A DNA stretch of 64,000 nt from Parolsenella catena (GTDB lineage Bacteria > Actinomycetota > Coriobacteriia > Coriobacteriales > Atopobiaceae): NCBI RefSeq assembly GCF_003966955.1, contig NZ_AP019367.1:1-64000 (forward strand), read 5' to 3'. Under the pieces are notes generated by a model, which saw only the letters and a list, made by a program, of their open reading frames with translations, did not search any database and had not been told where the DNA came from. Both the position numbers and the translations under genes were made by a program. Shown piece by piece: positions 12,520 to 49,734 of this stretch (position 1 is its first letter; every line of letters starts with the position of its first letter).

Positions 12520-12536
12520 AGCTAATCTACCTGCGA
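12520..12536 (-). promoter_or_regulatory. GCAGGTAGAT motif upstream of the giant adhesin
   Basis: Read on the minus strand this is TCGCAGGTAGATTAGCT. TCGCAGGTAGATAGCT occurs upstream of the second VWA adhesin (43834-43849), and GCAGGTAGATT occurs upstream of dnaB (27491-27501). It lies about 100 bp before the adhesin start, in an AT-rich region that also has TTGACC (12571-12576) and the inverted repeat AGATAA/TTATCT (12594-12611). The role is inferred from recurrence only. Confidence 0.4.
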
Positions 12537-12634
12537 GTTCTCAAATTTGGCACACATGTGACCTATTGAATTGACCTCGATTTACTGACGATAAGATAAG
12601 CTCGGTTATCTAGCTTTCGTCGGAGGAGGTCACC

Positions 12635-15600
12635 ATGAGGCGACTAAGGCTTCTGTTGTTGTTTGCGATATTCCTTACGTTGGCACCTGTCTCGGCCTTC
12701 GCCGCCACGGCTGGCGCTACCACGGTCGCCGACCCCTCGTCTGCGTCAACGTGGCGCAACTGGGACCTCGAAAACTCGACGGAGAACGTCGGCCGCATTT
12801 GGACCGATAAGACCGTCTCGGATGACAACATCGACCTCACGGGTGCCGGCGGCACCATGACGACCGAGAAGGGTGACTCGGACTTCCTGACGTCACTCTC
12901 CGCCATCTCCTCGACGTCGAACCTGACGATGACGTCCTCGACGCCGTTGGATATCGTCCTCGTTCTCGACGCCTCTGGCTCGATGGACGATTCGATGGGC
13001 AACCGTGACTCCACCAAGCGCATCGATGCGCTCAAGGCTGCCGCCAACGCCTTCGTCGACGAAATCGCGAAGGCAAACGAGGGTGTCTCGGACGCAAACC
13101 AGCAACATCGCGTCGCCGTGGTGAAGTTTGCCGGCAACGGCACGGAGCGCATCGGCAACGATACCTACTGGTCTGGAGGCTACAAATACAACTACAGTCA
13201 GCGCATGCTTGGGCTCACCGCTTGCACGCAGGACGGCAAGGGGACCATTACCTCCCGCATCAACGCGATCGAGCCTGCCGGCGCCACCCGCGCCGACGAG
13301 GGTATGAGCCAAGCCAAAAAGGCACTCGATGACAACCCGCGCCCTGGTGCAAAGAAGGTTGTCGTGTTCTTCACGGACGGTACGCCGACTACGAGCAATG
13401 AATTCAGCGAGAGCGTCGCCAACCGCGCCGTTTCCACCGCTAAGGCCCTTAAGGATGGTGGAACTACCATCTACACCGTTGGCATCCAGAATGGCGCCAA
13501 TCCTTCCGTTGACCCCGACAGCTGGGGAGCTACGAAGGAGAACAAGTTCCTGCACGCCGTGTCCAGCAACTATCCCGCCGCAACGGAGTATGACGAGCTT
13601 GGTGCGCGCGCGACTGACTCTGACTTCTATAAGACGGCGACGAATGCCGACGACCTCAAGGATGTCTTCAGTGGAATCTCGCAGGACATCGTGAGTGCGG
13701 CCGGTCATCCCACTGATGTCGTCGAGGGTGCCGAGAACACGTCTGGTTACGTGACGTTTACTGATCAACTGGGCGACTACATGAAGGTCGACAGCTTCAA
13801 GAGCATCGTTTTTGCCAGGCGGGTCTTCTCCGCCCCCGATGTCTCCCGATCTGACAATGTCGATACCTACACGTTCCATGGCACGGCCGGTAACGTGCTC
13901 TATCCCACGGGCGACCTTGCCGATATCGTTATTCGCGTCGAGCGCTCCGATGATGCCCGGACCGGTGACAAGGTGACCGTCTCCATTCCGGCGTCCCTCA
14001 TTCCGCTTCGTCATTTCAACATCGACGAGGATGCGGGAACCGGCGACGTGACGCTGACATTCCCCATTCGCGTGTTCTATGGGTCAAGCCTTAAGGAAGA
14101 GGCGATTGACCTCCTCGCGAATCCCGACGAGGCCATGGCGGACTACATTGCCAGCCACACGGATGAAGATGGGAAGGTTTATTTCCTCGCGAACGCGTAC
14201 TCCGGTGGGGTGGTGGATGGCGACACGACGTCTGCATTCACTCCCGCGACGGGTAACAGCTACTACTACATCACCGAAGACACGCCCCTTTACCGTGATG
14301 CTGAGTGCACGCAGCGCGCTCGTGGTCCGCTGAGCAGCTCTGCGACGTATTACTACAAGCGTTCCTGGTATGACATTGCTGACAGAAAGGCCACCAAGTC
14401 TTCGAGCGTGGCCTCCTTCCCCGGCAGCGTTGCCGAGGGTGTTACGGGCGCAATCGCCACTGATGAGTCCGGATATCTCATCCTGAGGAAGGGCTCCCGC
14501 CGCCTCACCTACATCAACGAGATGCACACCGATAAGGATGCCAACGCCACGGGTACCGCCTCTTCCATCATCAACCCCCACTGGAGCGGCAGGACAATCA
14601 ACGTTGCCCTTGGCAACAACGGTCGCATCTCGCTCGAGCAGCCCGGAACGCTCGCGATTTCCAAGACGGTCGCTGTTCCCGCTGGCTTCGACGAGGGTTA
14701 CTACAACGACCTTAACTTCACGTTCAACATCTCGATTCCCGATGCTGCCGGCAAGACGTTCAAGGCCACCGTCAAGGGTAAGGACGGGACGGCCCACGGT
14801 GACGCGTCCTGGGACCTCACGCTCGACGCCCACGGCAATGCCACGCACACGCTCAAGCACGGAGAGACGCTCTACGTGTATGGCCTTCCTCGGGGAACTG
14901 CCTACACCGTGACCGAGGAAGCCGCGAACGGCTTTGTGACTTCGCCCACCGTGCCGCAGGAAGGCACGATCGAGGCCGGCCTTGAGGCTAAGGCAGAATT
15001 CAGGAACACCTACTCCGCTAAGGGAACGCTCTCCGGCAGAGAGAACCTCGCCGGAGAGAAGATCCTCGATGGCCGCGATTGGCTCGCAAACGATAGCTTC
15101 ACGTTCATCCTCCAGGGTCTCGACGGTGCACCCATGCCGGAGGGTGCCGAGGGAAACATCTCCAGGATTGTCGTGACGAGCCCCGAAGGCACGCCCTCCG
15201 GAACGCCTGTTGCCTTCAACTTTGGTGACATCGCCTACAACGCGCCTGGCACCTACACCTATCAGATTTACGAGCCCGCCGAGGAAGCCGCGACGCCCGG
15301 TGTGTCGACCTCACTCGCCCTCTACACCGTGACCGTCACGGCCGAGGACAACCACGACGGAACGCTCGCCGCCTCTGCCGGGATCACGTGCGACCGCGAC
15401 GACCTCGGTGCCGAAGTCGCCGCAGAGGCCGCCGCGACGAACGTCGCGAGGTTCACGAACACCTTCGACGCCACTTCGCAGGAGTGGGCACCCATCGCCA
15501 CGAAGACGCTGCACGACGCGTCTGGCGCGCTGTCTCTCCAGCCCGATATGTTCGAGTTCTCGCTGACGCCCATGCCCGGCGCTCCCATGCCCGCCGACGC

Positions 15601-18600
15601 GACCGAGCTCGTTGGCAACAACAACGCCCATGGCGTCGTGGTCTTCGAGGGGATCACCTTCACGAGCGAGGACGTGGGCAAGACCTACCAGTACAGGATT
15701 TCCGAGAAGGTCCCCGCCGATCCTCGTCCCGGCATGACATATGACGACGCGGTCTGGATCGCGACCGTGACTGTGACCCACGAGACCGTCGACGGCGAGA
15801 ACCTCGTCAAGGTCTCCGCCACGTATGCCCGTGAGGGCGAGAGCGAGGGCCATGGGGAGGCTGCGTTCGAGAACTCCTATACGCCCGAGGCGTTCGCTGA
15901 ATCCGGAATCATCAAGGGCGAGAAGCAGCTTGTTGGCCGAGACATGCTCGATACGGATAACTTCAACTTCTCCCTGAGCCTCGTCTCTGGCCCCGAGAAT
16001 GGTGTCGTCTCTGACATGCCTCTCAATCGTGTGACCAACGGCAACGTGGTCAACCTTGAGTCTGGCGAGATGACCTTCACCAAGCCTGGCGAGTACGTCT
16101 TCGGCATTCGCGAGAACGCCCCTGCCGAGGATGGCGCGGGCATCACGTGGGACCGCCACGTCGCCACCGCAACCGTCACTATCGTTGACAACAATGGCAC
16201 GCTCGCCCTTAGGAACGTCTCCTACGACAACACGACCTCTGCGATCGATAAGGACAAGGGCATTACCGATTACGCGGCCTTCACGAACGTCTACGCGCCC
16301 ACCGAGGTCGCCTACTATCCCGGTCTTACCGTGAGCAAGGTCCTCACCGGCCGCTCCATGGATATGGGCATGTTCTCCTTCACCATCAAGGGCAAGGATG
16401 CTACCGCCGAGACCGGAACCACTGCTGCGACGGCTGACGAGGCAAATGCCTTGCTCGCCGATTCCGACAAGAGCTTCTCCAACACCCAGAGGCGCGCAAG
16501 CGGCATCGCCGAGGACATGGCGAAGCTGTCTGACGTGGTCTTTAGTGCGGAGAACGCCAACAAGACCTATGCGTTCGATGTGGCAGAGGTCATCCCCGCC
16601 GATAGGGATAAGATCCCTGGCGTTAGCTATGACAACTGCACGCACGAGGTAGTCGTCTCCGTCATCGATAACCTCGACGGCACGCTGACGGTCACGACGA
16701 AGATCGACGGCCAGGTCGTGAGCGACGACAGCCGTAGGGTCCTGTTCGAGAACACGTACCATGCCGAGGATGCCACGGTCGCAACGGCTGACTTTGGCCT
16801 GACGAAGGTCCTCGAAGGCCGCGACTGGCAGAATGGCGACAGCTTCACCTTCCTGCTCGAGGGCGTCAACGGCGCTCCCGTCCCCATGGGTGATGACGGC
16901 GCGCCCTCTACGGAGGTTGCCGTTAGCTCCAATGATGCCACCGACGGGGTGGCGGAGATCGACTTTGGCTCCATCGTGTACACGCAGCCTGGTCAGTACG
17001 AGTACAAGGTCACCGAAAAGCGCGGAAGCGCCGGTGGTATGACCTACTCTGACAACGTCGCTGTCCTCCGCATTACCGTCCGCGATAACACCGAGACTGG
17101 CAAGCTCGAGGCTTCCGTCGAGCGCGTGTCCGGTGACGGGGAGTTCGTCAACACCTATGACTCGAGCATCCCGTCCGATCAGCTCGTGAGTCCCCACTTC
17201 TCCAAGGTTCTCGAGGGTCGCGAGTGGCGCGAGGGAGACAAGTTCACCTTCACGATCATCGCCAAGGACGGAGCGCCTCTTCCCGTCAATGCCAACGGCG
17301 AGGAAGTCACCAGCGTGACCGTCCACGACGCCACCGAGGCGGCGGACTTCACGTTTGGCACCATCCCGTTCACCTATGACATGGTGCGCGATGGCGCCCG
17401 CACGTTCGTCTACGAGGTTCGCGAGAAAGCCTCCGGCATCTCCGGAATCTCTGACGACCCCCACGTCGCGACGGTGACCGTGACGGTTGCTGACCGGGGC
17501 AACGGAACGATGAGTGCCGTCGTGAAGAACGAGAACAACGTCTTCAAGAACACCTACAGCTCTCGCCTCGACTACACCGCCGCTGGTGGCCTGAGCGTCA
17601 CGAAGACGATGAACGGCCGAGCCATGAGCGCGGGAGAGTTTAGGTTTGACGTTGTCGCCAACGGCGATGGCGACAAGCTCGGGATTGCCGGCGAGCACGC
17701 CAGCTCCGCAGCCCCTGACGGGGACGAGGCTCTTGTGGTGAGCTCGCCCACGGGCGTCACGTTTACCCAGGAAGACGTAGGGAAGGTCTACTCCTACACC
17801 ATTACCGAGAAGGGCGGCAATCTTGGTGGCGTCAGCTATGACGCAACGAGCTACAACGTCGAGATCACCACGGATGATGACGCTTCCAACGCCAGGCTCA
17901 CGGTGACGACGCGCGTTACGAGCACGTCTGGTATCGACAACACGTACACCTACGTTGCCGGTTCCGATGCGAACGCCGCTGCTAAGGTCTCCTTCGAGAA
18001 CTCCTATGCCGCCGCGAGGACGACGACTTCCATCGTTGGCACGAAGTCCATGACGAACGGCCTCATGTTTGACAACGACTTTAAGTTCCGCCTCGCCTAT
18101 GGCGCGGGTGACCGTGCGGTCGTCTCTAACGCTACGAATGTCAACGGCAAGGTGGACTTCGGGACCCTGTCCTACGACAGCAAAATACTCGAGGGCCTTG
18201 TTGGCAAGGGTCTCGCTACTCGCACGGGCAGCACCTGGACGATTCCGTACGTTGCCTACGAGGTCACCGATGGCCTGGGCGACCGGGGCGTGACGCCCAC
18301 GGCGTCGAGCTTCCCCTTCAACGTGACCGTCACGGACAACGGAAAAGGAACGCTGACCTGCACGACGAACCTGCCCACGGGTGGCCCCGCGTTCCGCAAC
18401 ACGTACGCGACGGGCGAATCCGTCTCCATCGAGCTTGCGGGCTCCAAGCTCCTCAACGTCGACGATGGCCTTGCCGGGGCAGATATCGCCGGTAAGTTCA
18501 AGTTCACCGTGACGGGCTATGACGGCGCTCCCATGCCCGAGCGCACCACCGCCACGAACGGCGCGAACGGCAACGTCGGCTTCGGCTTGATCACGTTCAC

Positions 18601-20038
18601 GTTCGACGACCTTCTGAAGGCCCTGGGCGAGACTCCTGGCACTACGGACGAGGCTGCCGAGGCGCTGGACGCCCCGACGACGAACGCCCCTGAGGCCACG
18701 CCCGATGTCCAGACCGGAGAGCCCGCCTCCGCCGCGGAGAACTTCTCTGACGGGGCCGAGCCCGAAGACGCTGCTCCCAAGGCGGCCCCTGAGGCCGAGG
18801 GAGAGGCTCCCGTAGCACCCGACGCCACCGAGTCCGCGCCCGCAGCCGAGCCTGCGCTCGAGGCCCTCGCCAACCATGACGTCGAGGGGGATGCCACCGC
18901 CACGGCATCCTGGCGTAGGTCCCGTAGGGCGATGCGCGTCGTCTCCGACACCGCTGAGACGGACGGAGCCGACGAGGCGGGTTCCGAGCCCGTCCGCGAG
19001 CGCTCCCACACTTATCGCTACGACATCACCGAGAGCGGTTCGGCAGATGGCGTCACGAACGACACACAGTCCACGCGTACCGTGTATGTCAAGGTCACGG
19101 ACAACGGCCGTGGCAGCCTCACCGCAGCCATCGTCGACGAGCACGGCAACGTGCTCTCCGGTCCCGCCTTCACCTTCACGAACTCCTACAGCGTCACGTC
19201 CACCACTTCGAGCGTCACTGATCAGATCAGGGTCCACAAGACCCTGACCGGGCGCACCCTCGATGCGAACGAGTTCACCTTTGAGCTTATCGAGGATGGG
19301 CGCGTTGTTGCCACGGGCACGAATGACGCATCGGGCAATGTGGCTCTGAGCACCATCGAGTACACCGCTCCTGGCGTCCACAACTACACGATTCGCGAGC
19401 ATGGCTACGGGACCACCGCGAATGGCGTTACGTATAGCGATGCAACCTACCGTGTGACGACGACCGTCGTGGACAACGGGGACGGAACCCTCGGCGTTAC
19501 CCACAAGCTTGTGGATGCGGATGAGGCCGAGTTCGAAAACGTCTACACCGCCAAGCCCACGAAGCTCGCGCTCACCGCAGCCAAGGTGCTCGAGGGCGCA
19601 GTCCTCAAGGCCGACCAGTTCACCTTCAAGCTCTCCGGTGGCGGTGTGGAGCTCACCGCGACGAATGACGCGAACGGTCAGGTTACGTTCTCCGATCTCT
19701 CCTTCACGCAGGTCGGCACCTACACGTTTACCATCTCCGAGGTGAACGATGGCCAGCAGGGCGTCACGTATGACGAGCCGGAGCGCAAGGTCACTGTCAC
19801 GGTCAAAGACGATCGTCAGGGCAACCTCATCGCGAGCGTGAACCAGGAGGAGCTCGCGGCTTGCGTGTTCCGCAACACGTACACCAATCCCGAGGAACCT
19901 GCGAAGCCCACGACCCCGGCGACGCCCACGAAGTTCGTCCCGCAGACGGGCGGCCCCATCGAGTCCGCACCCATCGTGGTTAGCGCGGTTCTCGGCGTCG
20001 CCATCCTCGCTGTTGCCCTCATTGTGAACAAGAGGTGA
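12635..20038 (+). CDS. Giant VWA / Spy0128-repeat sortase-anchored adhesin
   Basis: A 2467-residue cell-wall protein. A signal peptide (MRRLRLLLLFAIFL, then SAFA) precedes a von Willebrand A domain (about residues 104-345) with MIDAS motif DASGS and VVFFTDGTP. From about residue 670 come some twelve Spy0128/FctA-like repeats. Each opens with a K(V/T)L(E/T)GR-type strand, contains a Y-x-I/V-x-E strand and closes with F-x-N-(T/S/V)Y, the Lys, Glu and Asn that form intramolecular isopeptide bonds in this family. One repeat is interrupted near residues 2003-2123 by an Ala/Pro/Glu-rich insert. VPQTGG near residue 2435, a membrane helix and NKR form the sorting signal. GGAGGAGG precedes ATG. It is probably a pilin-like stalk with an adhesive tip; the ligand is unknown. 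Confidence 0.9.
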   Translation: MRRLRLLLLFAIFLTLAPVSAFAATAGATTVADPSSASTWRNWDLENSTENVGRIWTDKTVSDDNIDLTGAGGTMTTEKGDSDFLTSLSAISSTSNLTMTSSTPLDIVLVLDASGSMDDSMGNRDSTKRIDALKAAANAFVDEIAKANEGVSDANQQHRVAVVKFAGNGTERIGNDTYWSGGYKYNYSQRMLGLTACTQDGKGTITSRINAIEPAGATRADEGMSQAKKALDDNPRPGAKKVVVFFTDGTPTTSNEFSESVANRAVSTAKALKDGGTTIYTVGIQNGANPSVDPDSWGATKENKFLHAVSSNYPAATEYDELGARATDSDFYKTATNADDLKDVFSGISQDIVSAAGHPTDVVEGAENTSGYVTFTDQLGDYMKVDSFKSIVFARRVFSAPDVSRSDNVDTYTFHGTAGNVLYPTGDLADIVIRVERSDDARTGDKVTVSIPASLIPLRHFNIDEDAGTGDVTLTFPIRVFYGSSLKEEAIDLLANPDEAMADYIASHTDEDGKVYFLANAYSGGVVDGDTTSAFTPATGNSYYYITEDTPLYRDAECTQRARGPLSSSATYYYKRSWYDIADRKATKSSSVASFPGSVAEGVTGAIATDESGYLILRKGSRRLTYINEMHTDKDANATGTASSIINPHWSGRTINVALGNNGRISLEQPGTLAISKTVAVPAGFDEGYYNDLNFTFNISIPDAAGKTFKATVKGKDGTAHGDASWDLTLDAHGNATHTLKHGETLYVYGLPRGTAYTVTEEAANGFVTSPTVPQEGTIEAGLEAKAEFRNTYSAKGTLSGRENLAGEKILDGRDWLANDSFTFILQGLDGAPMPEGAEGNISRIVVTSPEGTPSGTPVAFNFGDIAYNAPGTYTYQIYEPAEEAATPGVSTSLALYTVTVTAEDNHDGTLAASAGITCDRDDLGAEVAAEAAATNVARFTNTFDATSQEWAPIATKTLHDASGALSLQPDMFEFSLTPMPGAPMPADATELVGNNNAHGVVVFEGITFTSEDVGKTYQYRISEKVPADPRPGMTYDDAVWIATVTVTHETVDGENLVKVSATYAREGESEGHGEAAFENSYTPEAFAESGIIKGEKQLVGRDMLDTDNFNFSLSLVSGPENGVVSDMPLNRVTNGNVVNLESGEMTFTKPGEYVFGIRENAPAEDGAGITWDRHVATATVTIVDNNGTLALRNVSYDNTTSAIDKDKGITDYAAFTNVYAPTEVAYYPGLTVSKVLTGRSMDMGMFSFTIKGKDATAETGTTAATADEANALLADSDKSFSNTQRRASGIAEDMAKLSDVVFSAENANKTYAFDVAEVIPADRDKIPGVSYDNCTHEVVVSVIDNLDGTLTVTTKIDGQVVSDDSRRVLFENTYHAEDATVATADFGLTKVLEGRDWQNGDSFTFLLEGVNGAPVPMGDDGAPSTEVAVSSNDATDGVAEIDFGSIVYTQPGQYEYKVTEKRGSAGGMTYSDNVAVLRITVRDNTETGKLEASVERVSGDGEFVNTYDSSIPSDQLVSPHFSKVLEGREWREGDKFTFTIIAKDGAPLPVNANGEEVTSVTVHDATEAADFTFGTIPFTYDMVRDGARTFVYEVREKASGISGISDDPHVATVTVTVADRGNGTMSAVVKNENNVFKNTYSSRLDYTAAGGLSVTKTMNGRAMSAGEFRFDVVANGDGDKLGIAGEHASSAAPDGDEALVVSSPTGVTFTQEDVGKVYSYTITEKGGNLGGVSYDATSYNVEITTDDDASNARLTVTTRVTSTSGIDNTYTYVAGSDANAAAKVSFENSYAAARTTTSIVGTKSMTNGLMFDNDFKFRLAYGAGDRAVVSNATNVNGKVDFGTLSYDSKILEGLVGKGLATRTGSTWTIPYVAYEVTDGLGDRGVTPTASSFPFNVTVTDNGKGTLTCTTNLPTGGPAFRNTYATGESVSIELAGSKLLNVDDGLAGADIAGKFKFTVTGYDGAPMPERTTATNGANGNVGFGLITFTFDDLLKALGETPGTTDEAAEALDAPTTNAPEATPDVQTGEPASAAENFSDGAEPEDAAPKAAPEAEGEAPVAPDATESAPAAEPALEALANHDVEGDATATASWRRSRRAMRVVSDTAETDGADEAGSEPVRERSHTYRYDITESGSADGVTNDTQSTRTVYVKVTDNGRGSLTAAIVDEHGNVLSGPAFTFTNSYSVTSTTSSVTDQIRVHKTLTGRTLDANEFTFELIEDGRVVATGTNDASGNVALSTIEYTAPGVHNYTIREHGYGTTANGVTYSDATYRVTTTVVDNGDGTLGVTHKLVDADEAEFENVYTAKPTKLALTAAKVLEGAVLKADQFTFKLSGGGVELTATNDANGQVTFSDLSFTQVGTYTFTISEVNDGQQGVTYDEPERKVTVTVKDDRQGNLIASVNQEELAACVFRNTYTNPEEPAKPTTPATPTKFVPQTGGPIESAPIVVSAVLGVAILAVALIVNKR

Positions 20039-27176: not shown

Positions 27177-27630
27177 CATCTGTTTACAATCGACAATCCG
27201 TGAGGAGCTCTGTGCCAACCGGCGGTTTCCAAGCGTGAGCGCAAGGGCGCCCTCTCGTCATGCTGGGGCGAGCCTAACTGCCTGTTAGCTATGAATTTAG
27301 ACTTCTACCTGGTGTTTCGCACTGAATGAATATTGGCGTCCAAACCGCAAGACAATTCGTTTGGGCTACTGCTGCCAAACCTGGGCTTGTAAGGTAAATG
27401 TTGAAAACCGTTTACCAGATTTCCAGAATTTGTTGAAAAGTGTGAAAACTCACGTTTTGCGTGGTAGGACGCATGGGCTTTTGAAAACGTGCAGGTAGAT
27501 TCGTCCTTGTGCTTGGTGCGATTCTGTGAGTGCATGGGCCTTGCCGTGGATGGACGTCCGCAACAAGGCCCTCTGACGTTATGGGCTAAGATAGTCAGTC
27601 GCACCGAATCACGCACTCATGGGAGGCCCC
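27177..27630 (+). promoter_or_regulatory. dnaB upstream region with GTTGAAAA motif cluster
   Basis: This 450-bp gap has no convincing gene. GTTGAAAAC (27400-27408), GTTGAAAAG (27432-27440), GTGAAAAC (27442-27449) and TTTTGAAAAC (27479-27488) are clustered, and the same words occur upstream of dnaA and dnaN. The first copy lies inside the inverted repeat GGTAAA/TTTACC (27393-27416). GCAGGTAGATT follows at 27491. The cluster could be DnaA binding sites that coordinate helicase expression with initiation. It is non-coding and AT-richer than its surroundings. Confidence 0.5.
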
Positions 27631-43705: not shown

Positions 43706-43734
43706 GCTCGCGAGTCCACAAGATGCGAAGGTCG

Positions 43735-43765
43735 GCCCGGCAGGAACTCCCTGCCGGGCTTTTTT
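43735..43765 (+). terminator. Terminator after the dehydrogenase gene
   Basis: GCCCGGCAGG (43735-43744) pairs with CCTGCCGGGC (43750-43759), followed by six T residues. Confidence 0.88.
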
Positions 43766-43811: not shown

Positions 43812-43861
43812 AATATGCATATAAGCGATATTTTCGCAGGTAGATAGCTATTTTTTGCAGG
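43812..43861 (+). promoter_or_regulatory. ATAT-N5-ATAT element, copy 1
   Basis: GCATATAAGCGATATTTT (from 43817) followed by CGCAGGTAGATAGCT. The two ATAT cores start 9 bases apart, as in the three other copies (46920, 49128, 49515). TATTTTCGCAGG repeats imperfectly as TATTTTTTGCAGG at 43849-43861, two helical turns on. It lies about 145 bases before the VWA adhesin start. It is probably an operator or activator site, inferred from recurrence. Confidence 0.6.
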
Positions 43862-43962
43862 ATTGAGCATGGAGCTGTCTACATCAGGGCCGCATGGCCC
43901 ACACAATCGAAGCCCGACGGCTCCGCTAGAGCCACGCACCTGCGTGGGGGAGAGGAGCCATC

Positions 43963-46851
43963 ATGGGGAAGAGGAAATGGGCCGCGAGCGCCTGGTCCAG
44001 GCGATTGCTTGGCGTAGCCGCTGCCGCGCTGCTTGCGCTTGGCGTTGCCGTGCCGTCTGTCGCGCTCGCGGACTCGGGGAGCGGCATCGTTGACCGCGTA
44101 CCCGAGCACCACAAGACCATCAAGGACAACGGGGACGGAACCTACGACCTCACGCTGTCCGTCACCGGCGACACCGAGCAGTCCTCGTCCGCCAAGCCGG
44201 TGGACGTCGTGTTCGTCGTCGACGTGTCGTCGAGCATGAACGACAAGGTGGACGGCTGGTTCGGCAAGAGCCGCATGAAGGCCGCGCACGATGCCGCTGC
44301 CACCCTTGCGAACAACCTGCTCACCGGCGAGAACGCCAACAAGCAGATTCAGGTCTCCGTCGTGACGTTTGGCACGAACGCCCAGGTTGCCACGGGCTTC
44401 ACGAGCGATCCGAGCGTCGTCGCCAACGCTGTCCCGACGGCTGCCGAGAGGAACCAGGGCACGAACTGGGAGGGCGGCCTCAAGCTCGCGAACGCCCAGA
44501 CGAGTGGCCGCGAGGGTGCCGAGAAGCACATCGTGTTCCTCTCCGACGGCAACCCGACGTACCGCGTGAGCGCTATGGGCTATACGTGGTGGGATGAGGG
44601 TGGCCTCTTCCATCCACAGGTCGACCACAAGGAAGGCGACAACCTCTACGGTTTTGGTGACAGCGACACCAATGACGGACGCTGCTACGCCGCCGCCAAG
44701 GCCGAGGCCAATAACCGCAACGGCGCTAACCTGTTCGTCGTGAGCGTCGCCAAGGACGCCGATAAGATGACCTCCTTCGCGACTGACACTACCGGCACCT
44801 TCCTCGACGGCACCACAGCTGACAACCTCGCCTCTGCGTTCTCGCAGATCGGCCAGGTCATCACCAAGACTGCTGGCTACAAGGACGTCAAGATCGTCGA
44901 CGCGCTCTCGCAGTGGGTCGAGGGCACGGCCGTGGATGGCACCGTCGAGAACGTTCGCTACGCCAAGGACGGACAGGCCTGGGCCACTGCCCCGCAGGCC
45001 ACCGTCACCGCTGGTGCCGTCGCCTGGGACCTCTCGAGCGCAGGTGAGCTCGAGAAGGGCGTCACCTACTCCATGACGTTCACCGTGCGCCCCAACGCCG
45101 CCGCGCGTGCGGACGTTGCCGCCAAGGGCTCTGAGCAGACCTATCCCACCAACGACGGCTCGGCCACCCACGTCGAGTACAAGACCGTCCAGAAGCAGAC
45201 CGGCCAGGACGACGTCATCTCCGCCGCCAAGACGGCCCCCTACGAGGAACCGCAGATCACCCTTGCGGCGCCCGCCCCCGTCACGGTCGACGGCGCCGCC
45301 GACCTTGCCGGAACCAAGACGCTCAACGGCCGCGACCTTGCTGTCGGCGAGTTTAGCTTCACCATCTCCGCGGCCGATGGCTCCGTCACCGACACCCCGC
45401 TTCCTGCCGAGACGACCGTCTCCAACAATGCGGACGGCTCGTTCCACTTTGGTGACATCGCGTTCGCCAAGACGGGCACCTACCTCTATGACGTGGCCGA
45501 GGACACCTCCGCGCTCCCGGCGGGCGTCAAGGCCGTGACCCAGGGCGCCGAGCGCGTTGAGGTCGACGTCACCGTGAACGAGGCTGGCGAACTCGTCGCC
45601 AGCGTCAAGGTCCCCGAGGGCGGTCTCTCCTTCGTGAACGAGTACGGCACCAATGACGCCGTCGTCTCCGTGAACGCCACCAAGGCCATCGTTGCGAACG
45701 GTCTTGAGGCGCCGACCCTTAATGACGGTGACTTCTCGTTCACGATCTCTGCCGACACCGAGGGTGCGCCCCTGCCCGACGAGACCACCGTCACCAACCG
45801 GGGCGGCAACGTCTCCTTTGGCCCCATGACCTTCGCCAAGGCCATGCTCGGCGACGAGATGAGCAAGACGTTCGACTACACCATCTCCGAGAGCGGCTCC
45901 AAGCCCGGCGTCACCAACGACTCTGCCAAGAGCTTCTCCGTCACCGTGACCGATGACGGCAAGGGCAACCTCACTGCCGAGATGTCCGGCCCCGTCTCGT
46001 TTGCCAACACCTACGCCGTGGCCCCGCTGAGCTACAGCGTCTCCCGGGATGTGAGCGTCAAGAAGGAGCTCGCCGGCCGAGACCTGCGCGAGGGGGAGTT
46101 CAGCTTCGAACTTCTCGAGGGTGATGACGTGGTTGCCACCGCCACGAACGCGGCGGACGGCACCGTGACGTTCCCCGAGCTCACCTATGACGCCCCTGGT
46201 GAGCACAGCTACACGGTTCGCGAGGTCGCGGGTGATGCCGCGGGCGTCTCCTATGACACCACCGCCTACGCGGTGAGCGTCAAGGTCTCCGACAATGGCG
46301 ATGGCACGCTCTCTGCCACGGCGTCCGGCGACACTAGCGTTACCTTCAAGAACGTCTACGAGGCTGCGCCTGCGACCGTCACGCTCAACGCCAAGAAGGT
46401 GCTCGAGGGTGCCGAGCTTGCGGACGGCGAGTTCACGTTCCGCCTCGAGAACGGCGGCCAGCTCATGGACGAGGCCACCAACGACGCCGATGGCAACGTG
46501 ACCTTCCGCGAGCTCACGCTCAAGCAGGCGGGTACCTACACCTTCACGGTCTCCGAGATCGCTGGCAGCGAGGAAGGCGTCACGTACGACTCCTCCCAGA
46601 AGACGGTCACCGTGACCGTCACGGATGACGGCAATGGCCAGCTCCAGGCGAGCGTCGAGGGCAACGGCCAGACGTTCACGAACACCTACGTCAAGCCTGC
46701 CGCAGGCGATACCAACGCCGATGCGGGAGATGCCGATAAGGCCATTCCCCAGACGGGTGACACGAACAACGCCGCGCTGCCGATTGTGGTGGCCGCCGTG
46801 GCGGTTGCCTGCATCGCGGGCGGTCTTGTGGCGAGCCACAAGCGCAAGTAG
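43963..46851 (+). CDS. VWA / Spy0128-repeat sortase-anchored surface protein
   Basis: A 962-residue cell-wall protein and shorter relative of the giant adhesin. A signal peptide (RLLGVAAAALLALGVAV, then ALA) precedes a von Willebrand A domain (about residues 80-300) with MIDAS DVSSS. Four Spy0128-like repeats lie between about residues 440 and 920, each with a Lys near its start, a T-x-S/V-E strand and a closing F-x-N-x-Y. IPQTGD near residue 927, a membrane helix and KRK form the sorting signal. GAGAGGAG precedes ATG. It is preceded by operator-like copy 1 and followed by a strong hairpin. Confidence 0.9.
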   Translation: MGKRKWAASAWSRRLLGVAAAALLALGVAVPSVALADSGSGIVDRVPEHHKTIKDNGDGTYDLTLSVTGDTEQSSSAKPVDVVFVVDVSSSMNDKVDGWFGKSRMKAAHDAAATLANNLLTGENANKQIQVSVVTFGTNAQVATGFTSDPSVVANAVPTAAERNQGTNWEGGLKLANAQTSGREGAEKHIVFLSDGNPTYRVSAMGYTWWDEGGLFHPQVDHKEGDNLYGFGDSDTNDGRCYAAAKAEANNRNGANLFVVSVAKDADKMTSFATDTTGTFLDGTTADNLASAFSQIGQVITKTAGYKDVKIVDALSQWVEGTAVDGTVENVRYAKDGQAWATAPQATVTAGAVAWDLSSAGELEKGVTYSMTFTVRPNAAARADVAAKGSEQTYPTNDGSATHVEYKTVQKQTGQDDVISAAKTAPYEEPQITLAAPAPVTVDGAADLAGTKTLNGRDLAVGEFSFTISAADGSVTDTPLPAETTVSNNADGSFHFGDIAFAKTGTYLYDVAEDTSALPAGVKAVTQGAERVEVDVTVNEAGELVASVKVPEGGLSFVNEYGTNDAVVSVNATKAIVANGLEAPTLNDGDFSFTISADTEGAPLPDETTVTNRGGNVSFGPMTFAKAMLGDEMSKTFDYTISESGSKPGVTNDSAKSFSVTVTDDGKGNLTAEMSGPVSFANTYAVAPLSYSVSRDVSVKKELAGRDLREGEFSFELLEGDDVVATATNAADGTVTFPELTYDAPGEHSYTVREVAGDAAGVSYDTTAYAVSVKVSDNGDGTLSATASGDTSVTFKNVYEAAPATVTLNAKKVLEGAELADGEFTFRLENGGQLMDEATNDADGNVTFRELTLKQAGTYTFTVSEIAGSEEGVTYDSSQKTVTVTVTDDGNGQLQASVEGNGQTFTNTYVKPAAGDTNADAGDADKAIPQTGDTNNAALPIVVAAVAVACIAGGLVASHKRK

Positions 46852-46869
46852 TGCCGCATAAGGCAAATG

Positions 46870-46902
46870 AGAGGGGCCAGGCCTTCCGTGCCTGGCCCCT
46901 CT
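46870..46902 (+). terminator. Terminator after the 962-residue surface protein
   Basis: AGAGGGGCCAGGC (46870-46882) pairs perfectly with GCCTGGCCCCTCT (46890-46902). The run that follows is only partly T-rich. Confidence 0.7.
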
Positions 46903-46912
46903 TATATGCCCG

Positions 46913-46945
46913 CCTATGCATATAAGTTATATTTCCGCAGGTAAA
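46913..46945 (+). promoter_or_regulatory. ATAT-N5-ATAT element, copy 2
   Basis: ATGCATATAAGTTATATTTC followed by CGCAGGTAAA. It matches copy 1 at nearly every position from ATGC to GGTA and lies at almost the same distance (about 140 bases) from the next surface-protein start. Confidence 0.6.
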
Positions 46946-47059
46946 CGCGTTGTTTAATTAGCTTTTGTTGAGGAGGATGCCAAGAATTCTCCTCACTTCT
47001 ATCGAGGAATAACCAAGCGAAGAAGGGCATCCGACACCCATTTGGGAAGGGAGCCCGAT

Positions 47060-49051
47060 ATGAAATCGAGAAACACCAACGGCACCCTGCGCAGTCGCGT
47101 TGCCATCGCTGCCGTCACGGCTGGCCTTGTGGCCTCGCTCGGCGCGCTTACGCCCGCTGCCGCCATCGCCGACGAGCAGGTTGCCCCACAGGAGGCCCTG
47201 ACGCAGCAAGAGGCCAAGGCCGAGGACGCACCTGCCGCGACTGACAAGGCGGCCACCGCGGACGTCGCCGAGCCCGCTGATGATGCCGCAGTCGCGCCCC
47301 AGGAGGATGCGAACCCAACGCCCGTCGCCAATCCCGTGGCTCGCTTCAATGGCCAGGACTATGACTCCTTCGACGCCGCACTCGCTGCGGCGAGTAACAC
47401 CGATGGGGCAACGATCGAGCTGCTTGCCGACGCCCAGACCAAAGGTCTCAACCTAAGCCGCGACCTTACCATCGACGGTGCCGGCCACTCCCTGACCTTT
47501 ACCGACAAGGGAATCGCGCTCTGGGGCCATGCGCTTGTGCTCAAGAACGTCAACGCATCTATGAGCGGCGTTGGCTCCACGCCCTACACGGCTGAGTGGA
47601 ACTGGATGTCGGTTTGCGCCAACAAGGATGCCTCTCTCACACTTGACGCTGCCTCGCTCAGCATGGATGGTGCTGGCACCGGCCAGAACGTCCACGCCAT
47701 CTACTTCTGCTCCAACAACAAGCTCAACCTGCGCAACGGCTCCAATCTCACAATCAAGAACTATGGGCAGGATGCGCTCGAGTGGGATGGTGGCGACGGC
47801 GGCTACAACGTCAACATCGAGGGTGGCTCCACCTACACCTCCGACCACAACCGCTCTGGTTTTACGGGTACGTTCACTGCCTCGGTCGATGCCTCCACGG
47901 TCAACGTGACGAACTCGACCGGTAATGGTTCGAACGGTTCCCACTTCGACATCAAGAACGGCTCTGTCGTCGACTTTTCGGACAACGGCGATCACGGCCT
48001 TTCGGCGGGCAACCTCTCCATTGCCAACTCGAAGGTTACGGCAAACAACAACGGCCGTAACGGCATCATCTTTACCGGAAAGGGCCAGTTCACCAACGCC
48101 GACGTCCAGGTGACCGGCACGCTGGGCAAGAGCTACTGGAATGCTGGCATTCGCCTGATGAAGAAGAATGCCTCGCTTGACGTCGACGCCGCCTCCAAGG
48201 TGTCCATCACGGGCAACTACGTAACGGGCCTGTTCCTCGACGCCGGCGCCCACGCCACGTTTGCCGAGGGTGCCGCGCTCGCCATCACGGGCAACGATGC
48301 CTCGCAGGCGAACTGCTCTACCAAGAGGGATCTGGCGCAGATGGGCGGCGGCGTTGTCGTGCGCTCCGGAGCAAACCTGACGCTTCCCAACTCCGCGGTC
48401 ATCGACAACAACAACGCCGCGCTTGCCGGTGACGACGTCTACGCCGAGGCTGGTGGCTCCATCTTGCTCGGGGTAACCAACAATGAAGACGCGCTCAATG
48501 GGTTTGGCGGCTGCGGCCATGCCATCGATGGCTGGTATGACGACGCTGCAGACGCCCGCTGGTCTGCTCACGGCGACACGAAGCACGTCAAGGCCGTTGA
48601 GGCTGGCAGCTTCCAGGGCCAAAATAGCCCGATTGCCCTCAAGGCGGCCCATGGCCTCGTGAACGTCAACTACCAGTACGTGGGCACCAGGCCAAACGAT
48701 GTCACGCTCCCTGCGTCTGACGAGGGCCTCGAGGTTGGGGCTTCCTACACCGCCAAGCCCCAGGCCGCGGTGGACGGCTGGACGTTCGATGGCTGGTACA
48801 CCGACGAGGCCTGCACCGCCAAGTGGGAGGATGGCGCGGAGCTCACGGGTTCCATGACGCTCTACGGCAAGTGGACGCAGGATCCGGTGGCCCCCTCTGC
48901 TCCCCAGACGCCCGGCGCCTCTGACGCCAAGCCGGCCGGGAAGGAGCTTCCGCAGACAGGCGACAGCGCCTCCGCAGCCCCGCTTGCCCTCCTTGCAGGA
49001 GCCACCGCGGCGCTGACTGCTGGTCTGACCGCGCGCAGGCGCTCGAGGTAG
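47060..49051 (+). CDS. Beta-helix-like surface protein with LPQTG anchor
   Basis: A 663-residue cell-wall protein. A signal peptide (RVAIAAVTAGLVASLGAL, then AIA) and an Ala/Glu-rich spacer precede about 400 residues rich in N-x-S/T and short hydrophobic strands (LTIDGAGHSLTF, LNLRNGSNLTIKNYG), as in right-handed parallel beta-helices. One InlB/Flg_new-type repeat (WTFDGWYTDEACTAKWEDG, then LYGKW) follows. LPQTGD near residue 629, a membrane helix and RRRSR form the sorting signal. ATG 47060 is chosen for GGGAAGGGAG upstream. Such folds often bind or process glycans; no catalytic residues were identified. Confidence 0.85.
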   Translation: MKSRNTNGTLRSRVAIAAVTAGLVASLGALTPAAAIADEQVAPQEALTQQEAKAEDAPAATDKAATADVAEPADDAAVAPQEDANPTPVANPVARFNGQDYDSFDAALAAASNTDGATIELLADAQTKGLNLSRDLTIDGAGHSLTFTDKGIALWGHALVLKNVNASMSGVGSTPYTAEWNWMSVCANKDASLTLDAASLSMDGAGTGQNVHAIYFCSNNKLNLRNGSNLTIKNYGQDALEWDGGDGGYNVNIEGGSTYTSDHNRSGFTGTFTASVDASTVNVTNSTGNGSNGSHFDIKNGSVVDFSDNGDHGLSAGNLSIANSKVTANNNGRNGIIFTGKGQFTNADVQVTGTLGKSYWNAGIRLMKKNASLDVDAASKVSITGNYVTGLFLDAGAHATFAEGAALAITGNDASQANCSTKRDLAQMGGGVVVRSGANLTLPNSAVIDNNNAALAGDDVYAEAGGSILLGVTNNEDALNGFGGCGHAIDGWYDDAADARWSAHGDTKHVKAVEAGSFQGQNSPIALKAAHGLVNVNYQYVGTRPNDVTLPASDEGLEVGASYTAKPQAAVDGWTFDGWYTDEACTAKWEDGAELTGSMTLYGKWTQDPVAPSAPQTPGASDAKPAGKELPQTGDSASAAPLALLAGATAALTAGLTARRRSR

Positions 49052-49078
49052 CGGGGAGAATCATCGGGGAAGGCGTTC

Positions 49079-49113
49079 AGGACGGGACCACGCGCGCCCC
49101 GTCCTGTTCTTGT
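49079..49113 (+). terminator. Terminator after the LPQTG protein
   Basis: AGGACGGG (49079-49086) pairs with CCCGTCCT (49098-49105), followed by GTTCTTGTTT. Confidence 0.7.
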
Positions 49114-49123
49114 TTGCGGCAGA

Positions 49124-49151
49124 ACGCATATAACGCATATTTCAGCTGGTT
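49124..49151 (+). promoter_or_regulatory. ATAT-N5-ATAT element, copy 3
   Basis: ACGCATATAACGCATATTTC followed by AGCTGGTTA. The two CGCATAT halves are a direct repeat 9 bases apart. It lies about 80 bases before the winged-helix gene, so that gene may be autoregulated. Confidence 0.6.
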
Positions 49152-49207
49152 AAAGCCTTGATTCGTTAACTTTAGGGGAGCGGGAAACTAATTCGATTGG
49201 ATATCGC

Positions 49208-49504
49208 ATGACAAAGCGAGCCAAGGTAAGCGCCGCCGTAGGCGTTCGCATCAACGAGCGCGAGCTCGATATCCTCAAGCGCATCCAGGCGGGTGTCGCC
49301 CCATGCGTCCTGAGCGTGAACGGCCTTGCGCGCGATTTCTCGTGCAGCGTTGCCACCGTGCGCAACTCGATAAGGGCGCTTGAGGACAAGGACCTCATCA
49401 CCGTGCGCGCCCGCTTCTTGAGGAACGGCGGCCAGCTCGAGAACGAGTACGAGCTCACGGAGGCGGGCGGCAGGATTCTTGAGGTGAACGGTAGTCTCGA
49501 GTAA
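49208..49504 (+). CDS. Small winged-helix DNA-binding protein
   Basis: A 98-residue basic protein that is almost entirely one winged-helix domain: SVNGLARDFSCSVATVRNSIRALEDKDLITVRARF reads as helix-turn-helix plus wing (DFSCSVATVRNSIRAL as recognition helices). No sensor domain is visible. The ribosome site is weak (GATTGGATATCGC before ATG). It sits right after the two surface-protein genes and has the shared ATAT element upstream (copy 3), making it the leading candidate for the local regulator. The family is not assignable by eye. Confidence 0.7.
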   Translation: MTKRAKVSAAVGVRINERELDILKRIQAGVAPCVLSVNGLARDFSCSVATVRNSIRALEDKDLITVRARFLRNGGQLENEYELTEAGGRILEVNGSLE

Positions 49505-49510
49505 GGGATA

Positions 49511-49540
49511 TTCCATATATCTCATATTTTCAGCCTGCCC
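49511..49540 (+). promoter_or_regulatory. ATAT-N5-ATAT element, copy 4
   Basis: CCATATATCTCATATTTT followed by CAGCCTG. The core spacing is the same as in copies 1-3 but the flanks have diverged. It begins 7 bases after the winged-helix stop and lies 100-200 bases before the poly-G / XRE genes. A GTGGGC/GCCCAC hairpin follows at 49576-49595. Confidence 0.5.
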
Positions 49541-49638
49541 CAAGACGGTCGACTAAACTCGAATCAAGGGACTGTGTGGGCGGGCCTTTGCCCACCTATC
49601 TTATCAGCCCATAACGCGCGAGTTTGGGGTGAGTCGGC

Positions 49639-49734
49639 ATGGAAATAGGTTCTGGGGGGGGGGGCGTCGCTGGTAACAGATTTGCCCGCGAGCTCGTTTC
49701 CTTCGACGTGCCGCCGACTACCCGAGGCCGGTGA
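49639..49734 (+). CDS. 31-residue open frame containing an 11-G tract
   Basis: ATG 49639 with GGGGTGAG upstream opens a 31-codon frame (MEIGSGGGGVAGNRF and on) that contains the G tract as four Gly codons. Its TGA stop overlaps the GTG start of the XRE gene (GTGA, 49731-49734), an arrangement typical of translational coupling. One G more truncates it after 12 residues. One G less moves its stop to 49766-49768, four bases before an internal ATG of the XRE gene. There is no homology evidence, so it may only be a leader. Confidence 0.35.
   Translation: MEIGSGGGGVAGNRFARELVSFDVPPTTRGR
49654..49664 (+). repeat. Homopolymeric tract of eleven G
   Basis: Eleven consecutive G residues, the longest homopolymer I noticed in the window. 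Tracts this long are slippage-prone and often mediate phase variation. It lies inside the short frame that overlaps the XRE gene start. A sequencing-length error is also possible. Confidence 0.85.

Follow-up and report, generated by a model that had tools for sequence, protein, structure and literature searches.

The stretch analysed here comprises the first 64,000 nucleotides of contig NZ_AP019367.1 of Parolsenella catena (assembly GCF_003966955.1; Atopobiaceae) and is referred to as the window. Within it, an island of about 6 kb carries two surface adhesin genes and two genes for small putative regulators, and a short AT-rich element with paired ATAT cores occurs four times in its intergenic regions. 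The features of the island, numbered from the first base of the window, are listed below (ORF, open reading frame).

43734..43760, + strand: intrinsic terminator of the upstream dehydrogenase gene, ending 57 bases before copy 1
43818..43833, + strand: element copy 1, CATATAAGCGATATTT, 145 bases before the ATG of the VWA adhesin
43836..43845, + strand: tail box of copy 1, GCAGGTAGAT, in the exact family-wide form
43963..46851, + strand: sortase-anchored adhesin of 962 amino acids with a VWA domain, DUF7604 and four FctA/Spy0128-like isopeptide domains
46870..46902, reported on the - strand: hairpin past the VWA adhesin gene, 16 bases before copy 2
46919..46934, + strand: element copy 2, CATATAAGTTATATTT, 141 bases before the ATG of the LPQTG adhesin
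46937..46946, + strand: tail of copy 2, GCAGGTAAAC
47060..49051, + strand: LPQTG-anchored adhesin, 663 amino acids from the ATG at 47060, containing a Listeria-Bacteroides repeat
49127..49142, + strand: element copy 3, CATATAACGCATATTT, 81 bases before the winged-helix ATG
49145..49154, + strand: tail of copy 3, GCTGGTTAAA, degenerate
49208..49504, + strand: small winged-helix protein of 98 amino acids, the best candidate regulator
49514..49529, + strand: element copy 4, CATATATCTCATATTT, 10 bases past the winged-helix stop and ahead of a hairpin, without tail
49576..49595, + strand: terminator-like hairpin, past copy 4 and ahead of the poly-G leader ORF
49639..49734, + strand: leader ORF of 31 codons holding the poly-G tract, its TGA overlapping the XRE GTG
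49654..49664, + strand: G11 tract, candidate slippage site and longest poly-G in the genome
49731..50030, + strand: XRE (HipB/Y4mF-like) regulator of 99 amino acids, without a HipA partner

Copies 1 to 3 were each located downstream of a preceding gene end and upstream of a gene. Copies 1 and 2 directly follow hairpins that close the preceding genes and are therefore placed at the starts of transcription units. Copy 4 lies 125 bases from the poly-G leader ORF and 217 bases from the XRE GTG; since it closely follows the winged-helix stop and the hairpin at 49576-49595 intervenes, it is not clearly ahead of the XRE transcription unit. A preliminary description of this DNA had assigned one element to each transcription unit. 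This arrangement held for copies 1 to 3 and is doubtful for copy 4. Scanning with Rfam at the gathering score detected no RNA family in the island, and four tRNAs only in the window.

The element has the consensus CATATA[A/T]NNNATATTT, with copies starting at 43818, 46919, 49127 and 49514. CATATAANNNATATTT was matched exactly by three of these, the fourth reading CATATATCTCATATTT. The paired ATAT cores (43819/43828, 46920/46929, 49128/49137 and 49515/49524) were spaced by 9 bases in all four copies, so that both the positions and the spacing described before were confirmed. Because ATAT is its own reverse complement, the element is also an ATAT-N5-ATAT dyad, a 13-base palindrome, and in copy 2 the dyad is perfect (ATATAAGTTATAT). 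With up to two mismatches allowed, the window contained four matches, which were the same four copies (0.02 expected).

For genome-wide searches, the pattern CATATAWNNNATATTT with A or T at position 7 was run against the closed genome of 1,796,691 bases. Four perfect matches were obtained, all inside one 5.7-kb stretch of the island. A single match with one mismatch was found at 1533787, between two convergent genes, and the 5.7-kb stretch thus accounts for four of the five best matches in the genome. With no other perfect copy and this one near-copy elsewhere, the earlier claim that the element belongs to the island was upheld. A reversed-pattern control gave no genome-wide match at the perfect or single-mismatch level. 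At three mismatches, 51 matches were counted versus 25 for the control, which corresponds to background level.

Across the four intergenic regions, the best 16-column motif scored 24.6 bits. Forty dinucleotide shuffles yielded a mean of 18.6 and a maximum of 19.2 bits, and none reached the observed value. Identity between copies was 75-88% in the core and only 22-48% in the flanks, i.e. the likeness ends at the element. Relics of duplicated promoter DNA, or a chance AT-rich likeness without regulatory function, would be in line with the expansion of surface-protein islands by duplication and with the lone near-match at 1533787. This explanation is regarded as very improbable, as the flanks are unrelated, the shuffles all stayed well short of the observed motif strength, and the two adhesins differ in domain architecture. 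Flank divergence together with motif strength argues against both chance and simple promoter duplication. The four copies very probably represent a real cis-regulatory element.

The convergent intergenic region around the near-copy (genome positions 1533720-1533860) combines an 18-base palindrome TATGACATATATGTCATA, the box GCAGGTAGAT, a GC-rich hairpin and the sole near-copy of the ATAT element outside the island, and may hold a small RNA or a regulatory site. Elsewhere in the window, a predicted surface protein of 2467 amino acids (12635-20038) has no ATAT element upstream.

For promoter placement, -10-like hexamers were sought in the regions of copies 1 to 3. The left half of each of these copies supplies TATAAG or TATAAC, a five-of-six match to TATAAT and in two of the three regions the only -10 hexamer of that quality. 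It stands in fixed register, 16 bases before the GC[AT]GG of the tail. The element probably overlaps or abuts a promoter, and as the hexamer is placed inside it, repression via a covered -10 would be likelier than activation.

The tail was treated separately. A GCAGGTA-like tail had been reported for three of the four copies; copies 1 and 2 show it clearly, copy 3 has it in weaker form, and copy 4 lacks it. In the sequences examined, GCAGGTAGAW was about 16-fold enriched in intergenic over coding DNA (small numbers). In this genome the box precedes gap, dnaB, a second giant VWA adhesin (on the opposite strand) and others. A copy before gap was likewise seen in a distant genus, and before gap in a genome that had no winged-helix match. 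De novo motif search upstream of winged-helix genes in another genus returned TCAAATAAnnnGCAGGTAGA, which has the same box as the window tail. The tail is accordingly no private signature of the island, as had been supposed. AAHNNGCAGSTAGAW showed a large family-wide excess over its reversed control, but this was inflated by codon usage because TCTACCTGC reads as frequent codons; the excess is thus no proof of a regulatory box, and the intergenic enrichment alone was used. Occurrence before gap and dnaB, and in genomes lacking the winged-helix protein, indicates that the box marks something wider than the island, and by this distribution the GCAGGTA box is a separate, wider promoter-associated element. 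As a winged-helix operator the tail was rejected, since a matrix derived from TCAAATAAnnnGCAGGTAGA assigned only ranks 17, 21 and lower to the copies in the window and the box also stands before gap in genomes without the protein. The intergenic occurrences of the box ahead of the giant VWA adhesin, dnaB, gap and others, in the wider form TTTGARAACNNGCAGGTAGATT or the shorter form GCAGGTAGAW, were located in the window at 12525-12546 (- strand) and 27479-27500 (+ strand) and in the genome at 468427, 1428439 and 1533745.

The hexamer and the tail bear on an alternative in which the elements are core promoters, consisting of a -10, an AT-rich start region and a GCAGGTA leader box, that serve a non-local factor without any dedicated regulator. 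The fixed register to GC[AT]GG would fit such an arrangement, as would the -10-like hexamer at the same place in several winged-helix promoters of another genus and the intergenic tail box at gap, dnaB and other genes. Ordinary -10 boxes, however, would not restrict CATATAWNNNATATTT to one island in 1.8 Mb, and even the tail-less copy 4 has kept its second ATAT half and leading C. This alternative is considered unlikely.

For the winged-helix protein, no curated Pfam or NCBIfam cut-off was reached (HTH_36, 22.0 bits with a cut-off of 25; GntR, 21.2 with 27; MarR, 16.4 with 24.6). Profile comparison with the PDB returned MarR-type and CRP DNA-binding domains at 1e-6 to 1e-4. A single-sequence structure model had a mean predicted local distance difference test score of 58 and was too poor for use. 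The small winged-helix proteins of this bacterial family were grouped as A1/A2. The window protein matched profile A1 at 7.6e-37, being itself a row of that profile; an independent single-sequence comparison with a protein of a congener gave 1.8e-18. Both its profile match and its surface-protein gene neighbours place it in the A1/A2 family. Profile searches found members in 22 of 140 family genomes, from two genera and with up to four per genome. The protein was located at 18 further loci, four of which represent one fixed housekeeping position (ftsH-aminotransferase). Thirteen of the other 14 have as neighbours a pilus cluster or surface proteins that are very large or LPXTG-anchored. In the congener G059, 9 bases separate an LPQTG adhesin gene from the winged-helix gene behind it. 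The association with adhesin and pilus loci favours the winged-helix protein as best candidate regulator of the island.

Ahead of the G059 LPQTG adhesin (L046:13690-13950), the inverted repeats CGCAACGGAATGGGTGTTCCGTTGC and GCAACGGAACACCCATTCCGTTGC flank a segment of about 180 bases immediately upstream of the adhesin start, next to a tyrosine-recombinase-like ORF. This repeat-flanked segment looks like an invertible promoter. The adhesin gene itself contains an in-frame TGA.

Poly-G tracts of nine or more were searched in the window, and the only one starts at 49654, inside the XRE leader ORF. The idea that this G11 tract switches the XRE gene directly between frames was rejected, since the leader is not fused to the XRE frame at any length between G10 and G12; translational coupling alone is left as a possible route. 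Among the relatives, six winged-helix genes beside adhesins carry a G9-G10 tract near the 5' end: L059 (G059), L102 (G090), L103 (G088), L105 (G097), L111 (G091) and L113 (G112). A change of one G is predicted to open or close the full ORF in each of the six. G9 tracts also lie near the gene start of two LPXTG adhesins (L056:9234 of G058 and L106:6614 of G113), which appear out of frame in the assemblies and would form an ORF of intact length at another tract length. At L048:4043 (G087), a G11 tract precedes a predicted protein of 549 amino acids whose N-terminal frame depends on tract length.

The XRE protein (49731) had been named beside the winged-helix protein as a regulator. It could bind the dyad with the winged-helix gene as a target, and the G11 leader would then render the whole regulon phase-variable. 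XRE dimers commonly bind short AT-rich palindromes, and ATAT-N5-ATAT is a 13-base palindrome that is perfect in copy 2. The XRE gene is also part of the island, downstream of copy 4, and its leader carries the genome's longest poly-G tract; one homologue (G088) adjoins a poly-G tract and a large surface protein. Most XRE homologues, however, accompany HipA-like kinase genes and not adhesins, and the congener with the adhesin/winged-helix pair had no XRE homologue at the threshold used. Moreover, copy 4 is the weakest of the four, and a hairpin stands between it and the XRE gene. This assignment is held to be improbable. Of the two regulators proposed before, the winged-helix protein is strengthened by the repeated adhesin and pilus neighbourhood of its family and the XRE protein is the weaker one.

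The preferred interpretation is that the ATAT-N5-ATAT dyad within CATATAANNNATATTT would be bound by the winged-helix protein of the island. From copy 1 the protein would control the VWA adhesin, from copy 2 the LPQTG adhesin and from copy 3 its own gene, whereas copy 4 would be an auxiliary or decayed site. Bound over the -10, the protein would repress both adhesins and its own gene, and the G11 tract in the XRE leader ORF may add random on/off control. The view that a small, self-contained regulon of surface proteins uses the four copies as its operators is given an even chance from the sequence data, and binding of the dyad by the winged-helix protein is judged equally open to either outcome. 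Its action as a repressor is proposed tentatively and is rather less likely than these. As expected for a regulon of a single regulator, the same site stands before each target and not elsewhere, with copy 4 as a poor fit.

Several results weigh against this interpretation. Copy 4 does not agree well with one site per promoter. A sigma-70 consensus scan of the island returned no full promoter, and at copy 2 any -35 would coincide with the hairpin upstream. As a candidate, the XRE protein is just as local. The ATAT element was not found at the adhesin/winged-helix operon of G059, nor, apart from unrelated AT-rich matches, at the winged-helix and adhesin loci examined in other genera; the site is thus not conserved at the orthologous loci. 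A within-locus search for shared operators at the winged-helix/adhesin loci of relatives gave none that was convincing; its exceptions above the shuffles were coding or overlapping matches and one weak case, L102.

Absence from orthologous loci had been named beforehand as an outcome that would speak against the proposed regulon. With the element missing from the congener pair and from the LPXTG-adhesin homologues of other genera, this outcome was in part observed and disfavours a conserved regulon. Operators of local regulators often turn over fast. Wider searches agreed with a restricted distribution. In 140 family genomes, near-matches of the element occurred at background level, and none of 30 inspected had the tail or lay beside a recognised LPXTG gene. 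For the element plus tail, GTDB r220 gave four hits, all unrelated, and IMG/VR gave no hit. By these pattern searches, the ATAT element is specific to this genome among those compared.

For comparison with known systems, three types of control were considered. In sortase-dependent pili of Bifidobacterium breve, G-tract slippage is an established switch in which a length of G9-G12 sets the reading frame (PMC9187656). The island likewise combines an actinobacterial surface-protein locus with a G tract, and the adhesins L056 and L106 of relatives resemble this arrangement. In the window, however, the tract lies in the leader ORF of a regulator, and the adhesin coding sequences have no G tract of nine or more; among relatives the regulator gene itself often carries the tract, so that switching would act in trans, and slippage is predicted here. 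Phase variation of pil1 in Streptococcus gallolyticus proceeds via repeats in a leader peptide, and the leader controls a terminator ahead of the pilin genes (PMC3894217). The island shares with pil1 a repeat tract in a short leader ORF ahead of a gene of a surface-protein locus. Unlike in pil1, the hairpin at 49576-49595 precedes the leader ORF, the downstream gene encodes the XRE regulator, and no terminator is situated past the leader and before a surface-protein gene. Autoregulated local repressors of the MarR, GntR and HTH_36 types share with the window the small winged-helix protein and a candidate dyad before its own and neighbouring genes; the window protein differs in scoring below every Pfam and NCBIfam cut-off, and its site is predicted.

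No literature on adhesin regulation or phase variation in this actinobacterial group was found, subscription papers being outside the coverage, and little appears known about adhesin control in its gut and oral members. With two adhesins, two small regulators and private candidate operators, the island is compact and easy to test. In a wider reading, adhesin and pilus loci of this bacterial family would have their own, so far undescribed family of small winged-helix regulators, and poly-G slippage in the 5' coding region would turn many of these on and off; the ATAT element of the window would be one example of their locally evolved operators. This is put forward as a possibility of somewhat less than even weight. 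If true, surface-protein regulons would vary in phase via a trans-acting regulator. Small winged-helix genes recur together with adhesins and poly-G tracts, which hints at a general strategy, in which the surface coat is switched by phase-variable regulators rather than by phase-variable adhesins.

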